Shown here one piece after another: positions 2,999-3,210 of a stretch of DNA of 6,145 nucleotides. Made by a program: the position numbers and the translations under genes. Where the stretch lies: the NCBI GenBank assembly GCA_023250585.1, contig JAHFAK010000019.1:17955-24099 (forward strand), read 5' to 3'. The stretch comes from Deltaproteobacteria bacterium (GTDB lineage Bacteria > Bdellovibrionota_F > JAHFAK01). Under the pieces are notes generated by a model, which did not search any database, was not told where the DNA came from, and saw only the letters and a list, made by a program, of their open reading frames with translations. Numbering within the stretch: position 1 is the first letter of the stretch; the number at the start of each line of letters is the position of its first letter.

Positions 2999-3027
2999 AA
3001 TTTAATTGAGAGAAAGATAGATGTCTA
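2999..3027 (-). promoter_or_regulatory. Candidate promoter of the transporter operon, nearly leaderless
   Basis: Read on the minus strand, TAGACA (3027-3022, five of six to the -35 consensus) is followed after 17 bp by TAAATT (3004-2999, four of six to the -10 consensus). Transcription would start near 2992, leaving only about six untranslated bases before the ATG at 2986. This would fit the absence of a ribosome-binding site there. The region is AT-rich, so a chance match is quite possible. Confidence 0.3.
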
Positions 3028-3044
3028 GTAATCCCTCAGTTATT

Positions 3045-3158
3045 AGGGTGTAGGTAAGTTCTCAAAAAGAATTTATATCGACGTCGCTTCCATAATACTA
3101 TTAAGAACAGGAAAGCGCGCTCGTATAGAAATACTTTTTGAGAACATACCTACTCCCT
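3045..3158. repeat. Long imperfect palindrome, MITE-like
   Basis: The outer arms 3045-3074 and 3129-3158 are reverse complements at 27 of 30 positions; the shared core reads GTTCTCAAAAAG on the plus strand at 3058-3069 and inverted at 3134-3145. With two single-base gaps the pairing continues inward (TATCGAcgTCGCTTCC at about 3076-3091 against 3110-3127), leaving a loop of about 18 bases that is itself nearly palindromic (TAATA-C-TATTA, 3093-3103). The ends are GGG...CCC (3046 and 3157), flanked on both sides by TTA (3043-3045 and 3158-3160). This could be a three-base target duplication, as made by some IS5-group elements (TNA targets), or it could be chance. No coding sequence is present. 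The element fills most of the 224-bp gap between the NmrA-like and transporter genes. A folded RNA or DNA regulatory structure is an alternative. It lacks the T-run of a standard terminator in either direction. Confidence 0.75.
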
Positions 3159-3210
3159 TACTGCCCCATTTACTCAGCTATTACGATGTCTACGTGATTT
3201 CTCTACAAGA

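Follow-up and report, generated by a model that had tools for sequence, protein, structure and literature searches.

What is the imperfect palindrome at 3045–3158 of the window (the whole stretch of 6,145 nucleotides analyzed here), and what maintains the complementarity of its arms? The initial annotation had described this palindrome as non-coding DNA between two minus-strand genes, and both the palindrome and its position were confirmed. The arms (34 nt each, at 3045–3078 and 3125–3158) are 88% complementary and are separated by a 46-nt spacer. The minus-strand fold of 3030–3170 has an energy of −52.4 kcal/mol, compared with −29.2 ± 4.0 kcal/mol for 200 dinucleotide shuffles of the same segment (z = −5.85), and none of the 200 shuffles equaled the native energy. 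The non-coding intergenic gap that holds the palindrome is 224 bp long and is bordered by an NmrA-like gene and a TLC-type ATP/ADP transporter-like gene (1748–2986), the profile match of the latter being mainly to the C-terminal part of the family. TLC-type ATP/ADP carriers are typical of intracellular bacteria.

Extent, copies, and target-site duplication of the window element

We searched the host genome (assembly G000; 2.24 Mb in 164 contigs, 96.7% complete) with a 141-bp query, and copies were found throughout; the best 40 candidates gave 74 matches, many of which represent both strands of one palindrome. The boundaries of the element were set by aligning 30, and later 42, genomic copies with their flanks. 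The similarity stops at GTAATnnCTCAGTTA and its inverse, and the window element starts with GTAATC at 3028 and finishes with TATTAC at 3184. The GGG/CCC motifs next to TTA, which had been taken as the termini, are both internal to these ends, and the flanking duplication is not TTA but the 8-bp GATGTCTA. The search for copies with the same ends that the initial annotation had called for gave about 42 full-length copies as a minimum, since copy numbers here are lower bounds from the best-scoring candidates per search; the element is thus not single-copy. In the following, A-type denotes the MITE copies and H-type denotes lone hairpins without MITE ends. The features of the locus are given below, with a strand where one is assigned.

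2986, minus strand: start of the TLC ATP/ADP-type transporter gene, one border of the 224-bp gap
3020–3027: left target-site duplication, GATGTCTA, identical to 3185–3192
3028–3184: complete A-type MITE, 157 bp, boundaries common to 42 aligned genomic copies
3028–3044: short terminal end, GTAATCCCTCAGTTATT, end-motif match
3043–3160: hairpin module (arms and conserved core), covariance-model (R2) match at C55:20997–21114
3045–3078: left arm, from complementarity and covariation
3079–3120, plus strand: conserved core (loop), CGACGTCGCTTCCATAATACTATTAAGAACAGGAAAGCGCGC, limits approximate, from core-pattern matches
3125–3158: right arm, from complementarity and covariation
3159–3184: long terminal end, reverse complement starting GTAATAGCTGAGTAAATGGGG, end-motif match
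3185–3192: right target-site duplication, GATGTCTA, identical to 3020–3027
3211, minus strand: stop of the NmrA-like gene, other border of the 224-bp gap

The flanking 8-mers were identical on both sides in 16 of the 42 A-type copies and matched at 7–8 of 8 positions in 27, compared with 2 of 1,722 mispaired controls in which the left flank of one copy was paired with the right flank of another. The A-type element is short, has no coding capacity, and occurs in many copies with common ends; it carries GTAATnnCTCAGTTA at each end as terminal inverted repeats, many of the copies having imperfect ones, and generates a target-site duplication with a constant length of 8 bp. Only one of the 42 copies lies inside a predicted ORF, which is short. 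These results indicate that the window palindrome is part of a mobile, gene-less MITE, in agreement with the small non-autonomous element that the initial annotation had suggested. Deletion of the window element together with one duplication would leave a 59-bp gap. No empty site was obtained from a joined-flank search of the fetched loci or from 58 other genomes, one of which belongs to the same class.

The initial annotation had suggested mobilization by an IS transposase. The GTAA tip is a trait of IS66, and because of this tip and the 8-base duplications, our best guess for the source family is IS66. The IS66-family elements ISPpa5a and ISPpa7 also have 8-bp direct repeats (PMC3281130), and the resemblance of the A-type ends to IS66 is confined to the tip. 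No match to the IS66 transposase (PF03050) was present in the host assembly, and a search for the IS66 and Y1 families in this 96.7% complete, fragmented assembly gave no autonomous element with the same ends. The parental IS was likewise not recovered as a long element between end motifs: the sole distant pair of motifs (C60, 2.1 kb apart) enclosed ribosomal L21/L27 and other genes, and the pair turned out to consist of a distinct short element and what is probably a fortuitous match. A transposase acting in trans would recognize the GTAATnnCTCAGTTA ends, move the MITE, and produce the 8-bp duplication.

Lone hairpins in gene junctions and their core

A covariance model (R1) was built from the 42 A-type copies and run on the host genome. 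It gave 36 further readable hairpins that have the shared core and lack MITE ends, which brings the hairpin module (~117 bp) to about 78 loci for the A-type and H-type together. In a separate pattern search, CGACGTCGCTTCCATAA (the first 17 nt of the core) matched 83 places at ≤3 mismatches, 62 of them exactly, compared with 6 control matches. The arms of the H-type are mostly 37–46 bp, and complementarity was perfect over the whole length in 19 of 35. Two lone hairpins (L175 and L188) share a rare inner-arm variant, CCCATGACG, and differ in their outer arms.

In regards to position, the upstream stop codon is commonly 2–20 nt from the H-type hairpin and the next start codon 5–30 nt beyond it, these distances being based on ORFs with uncertain start codons. 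Only 2 of the 36 H-type copies lie within ORFs, and the one of these that was scanned had no Pfam match. Insertions that split a gene were ruled out at the nine junctions below, where Pfam gives different genes on each side (names read from Pfam domains).

atpG/atpD
uvrD/rhomboid
mnmE/maf
AAA-ClpB-type/purA
phoH/murJ
T2SSE/rapZ
RNase J/M20 peptidase
tsf/amino-acid kinase (pyrH-like)
prkA/DUF444

The H-type showed no target duplication above the control level: ≥7 bases were shared between the flanks in 20% of copies and in 19% of controls. In the same test, the corresponding values for the A-type were 66% and 8%. Between co-directional genes, the loop of the H-type was directed with transcription in 11 cases and against it in 11. 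Homology and locations place the module of the MITE and the lone hairpins in one family; the lone hairpins are probably the older form, from which the MITE may have captured its module.

The core (~40 nt) is nearly invariant among copies. The core variants ACAGGA/ACGGGGT and TAATACT/TAAAACT/TAAAAAT occur in both the A-type and the H-type, although the arms of the two types differ (AAAAAG versus TTTTTT), and this sharing suggests several captures or an exchange of cores.

One alternative is that the hairpins are REPIN-like elements that a REP-associated tyrosine transposase (RAYT) mobilizes in single-stranded form, with the A-type MITE as a derivative. REPINs are also intergenic hairpins with compensatory changes in their spacers (PMC3116915). 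The host genome does contain four Y1 transposase genes, which we read as one IS200-type gene and three of RAYT-like length. Nevertheless, we regard this explanation as unlikely. None of the four Y1 genes has a hairpin match in its vicinity, and the foot of the hairpin lacks a conserved tetranucleotide, whereas REPINs have GTAG or CGTC at this place and adjoin a RAYT gene. The layout is also the reverse of that of REPINs, whose ends are conserved and whose inside is variable; here conservation lies in the apical core and variation in the outer arms. Furthermore, the A-type has 8-bp duplications and is bounded by other ends. The IS200-type gene (L194, on C13) has hairpin ends and is inserted in or beside a composite that includes a MITE end. 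Among the three RAYT-like genes (L195, L196, and L197), that of L197 is flanked by an inverted repeat of ~21 bp (AAAGGTGGGGACCGACATATG).

Arm pairing and probable interior inversion

We compared the pairing of the arms within copies with their identity between copies. Within a copy, about 95% of arm positions are paired (a fraction of 0.86–0.97), whereas the outer half of the arms is only about 30–50% identical between copies (about 0.3–0.5 by position). The pairing reaches position 38–39 from the core and then falls sharply to background. The arms are thus 38–39 bp long and copy-specific, with much stronger conservation in the inner arm and the core. In the H-type alignment, 95.1% of cells were paired, compared with 74.1% after shuffling and ≤58% with the partner slid, and two-sided changes were found in 39 of 46 pairs. 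The corresponding values for the A-type were 97.5% and 87.6% (shuffled), with two-sided changes in 23 of 43 pairs.

Covariation of this kind is as strong as that in known RNA families, and the H-type sits between operon genes a few nucleotides past a stop codon. Both observations would suit structured RNAs, for example intercistronic elements of mRNA processing or stability, in which selection pairs the RNA stem. A structured RNA should lie on one fixed strand and tolerate G-U pairs; the hairpins show neither property. With the loop orientation at 11:11, transcripts would contain either the core or the complementary sequence, without preference. The mismatches in about 2,755 arm pairs comprised 8 G-T and 13 A-C (H-type, 6 and 8; A-type, 2 and 5), small numbers that were scored along the direction of the loop, which bears no fixed relation to that of transcription. 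RNA selection should tolerate G-U and not A-C; since G-T was no commoner than A-C, the arms appear to be maintained at the DNA level. In addition, there was no Rfam match at the gathering score, and over half of the H-type stems are perfect across 37–46 bp, beyond the expected demand of an RNA stem. An origin of the pairing in structured RNA is accordingly improbable. The mismatch counts, together with the interior flips described below, fit template switching on DNA during replication better than selection on RNA.

Template switching between the arms of an inverted repeat homogenizes the arms and inverts the spacer (PMC8604942), and it yields instantaneous multi-base compensatory changes as well as inverted loops (PMC8794818). 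Inversion can be followed in the A-type because its ends differ, one being short (GTAATCCCTCAGTTATT) and the other long (GTAACAGCTCAGTTAATGGGGGAGT). With the core as reference, 21 of 38 copies have the long end on their left side and 17 have it on their right. On a tree of the interiors, the orientation label changes 17 times (15–17 in bootstraps); shuffled labels give 12.6. Although this tree is poorly resolved, with 1 of 33 inner branches starred, 4 changes are required by starred branches alone. Identical 89-nt interiors occur in opposite orientations in two pairs of copies (L021/L081 and L023/L087). In three copies, a homogenized tract enters an end and equalizes the end spacing (L007 and L017, short/short; L088, long/long).

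Judged from these comparisons, the interior may have flipped relative to the ends some 15 times among the 38 copies, with the qualification that short reads could misorient a segment between perfect arms and that the flips were read from a fragmented assembly of 164 contigs, several of which finish inside repeats. The same circumstances would favor an artefact in which the assembly of short reads created or reoriented perfect inverted repeats, and a part of the flips could still be explained in this way. As an explanation of the hairpins themselves it is very improbable: each of about 78 loci is individual in its flanks and arms, the arm length is constant, and the A-type has exact duplications.

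Another explanation for near-perfect arms of fixed length (38–39 bp) in nearly every copy is that every insertion creates them afresh through snap-back DNA copying, without later correction. The arms follow a graded family consensus (ATATGTTC, a T-run, and ATTTTCTATCGA), which indicates that they descend from each other. The tracts that partly enter the ends in L007, L017, and L088 look like later correction. Snap-back formation is therefore doubtful, if slightly less so than the RNA and REPIN-like explanations.

Arm homogenization, recurrent inversion, and the three copies with tracts entering the ends lead us to infer template switching. In this process, a polymerase would copy one arm onto the other and thereby keep the arms complementary as DNA, and at times the segment between the arms would be inverted. 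Overall, we consider it probable that the window holds a ~157-bp MITE moved in trans, which carries a captured hairpin of ~117 bp whose arms are kept by template switching. When the two sides of a stem covary strongly, this is normally accepted as proof that the stem functions as RNA. In these about 80 related hairpins of one genome, covariation most likely comes from template switching on DNA, and spacer inversion, the second signature that this process predicts, is visible in those copies. They offer naturally occurring material in which arm homogenization and inversion can be measured in bacteria, and a caution for the discovery of RNA families from covariation alone.

Template switching gives no account of a conserved core with diverging arms. 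Under template switching alone, the core would be expected to change at roughly the rate of the arms, whereas it is nearly invariant. Selection might hold the core for a function as DNA, protein binding being one candidate; action as DNA is suggested because both orientations occur. The lone hairpins in housekeeping operons also raise the question of what conserves their core. Tentatively, they could represent a novel class of DNA element in intercistronic positions, in which the apical core is recognized and the arms can be nearly any pairing sequence. Such an element would be read by a putative DNA-binding or mobilizing protein, the MITE would have captured one hairpin, and inversion would be frequent enough to randomize orientation. 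We regard this proposal as possible rather than likely.

Comparison with known systems and elements with the same ends

Neither the element nor the hairpin was found in the 58 other genomes (one of the same class, the phylum being represented by only two genomes), and the hairpin had no match in plasmid and phage records. A 20-nt core pattern was absent from 84,980 species genomes, a set that may leave out the host genome, and from viral contigs. No SSU rRNA was present in the host assembly, and the protein of the NmrA-like gene retrieved no relative from genome contigs. Bacterial MITEs such as Chunjie, QMITE2, and Cardinium MITECca01 (PMC9769881; reviewed in PMC10969869) are also short and ORF-less, with terminal repeats and a target duplication, and are likewise intergenic, present in tens of copies, and accompanied by deletion derivatives. 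Unlike these, the A-type has a near-perfect hairpin interior that flips, its ends enclose two unrelated cores, and its parent IS was not found among the IS66 and Y1 families searched.

Rickettsia palindromic elements, to which the initial annotation had likened the palindrome, are also palindromes of ~100–150 bp with many copies per genome. They are known to insert in frame within genes (PMC10969869), whereas the present elements lie between genes (ORF-internal copies, 1 of 42 A-type and 2 of 36 H-type), and the likeness did not hold. ERIC sequences (127-bp intergenic palindromes), compared by description only, are similar in size, central inverted repeat, and intergenic site. ERIC is not known to have arms that are specific to each copy and covary.

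The end motif GTAATNNCTCAGTTA (1 mismatch) occurred 95 times in the genome, compared with 6 for the reversed-pattern control. A second MITE family (B) has the A-type ends and an unrelated core built on GGATCCCGTGGTCAAGCCACGGGATGACA. B-family matches were found at about 30 to 40 places, and exact target-site duplications of this family are GTGTAAAT, GAAAGACA, and GAATCATT. Because most long matches are 95–100% identical and several contigs terminate within the family, the B family probably spread recently. Its members include L045, L064, L039, and L051, and two elements (L046 and L073) are A-B hybrids.

Four relics with the following lengths retain their duplications and form a visible series of decay by internal deletion; their junctions suggest deletions between short direct repeats.

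L049 (758): 16 bp, duplication TCATATCT kept
L048 (730): 30 bp, duplication TCAATTAT kept
L042 (755): 36 bp, duplication ATAAAAAT kept
L040 (2827): 43 bp, duplication GTTCAAAA kept

Furthermore, a composite repeat of ~245 bp (TGAGAAGGTGTGAAAAAATCAAG...GCAATGACA) abuts one MITE end at L019, L073, L105, L109, L120, and L123–L126.
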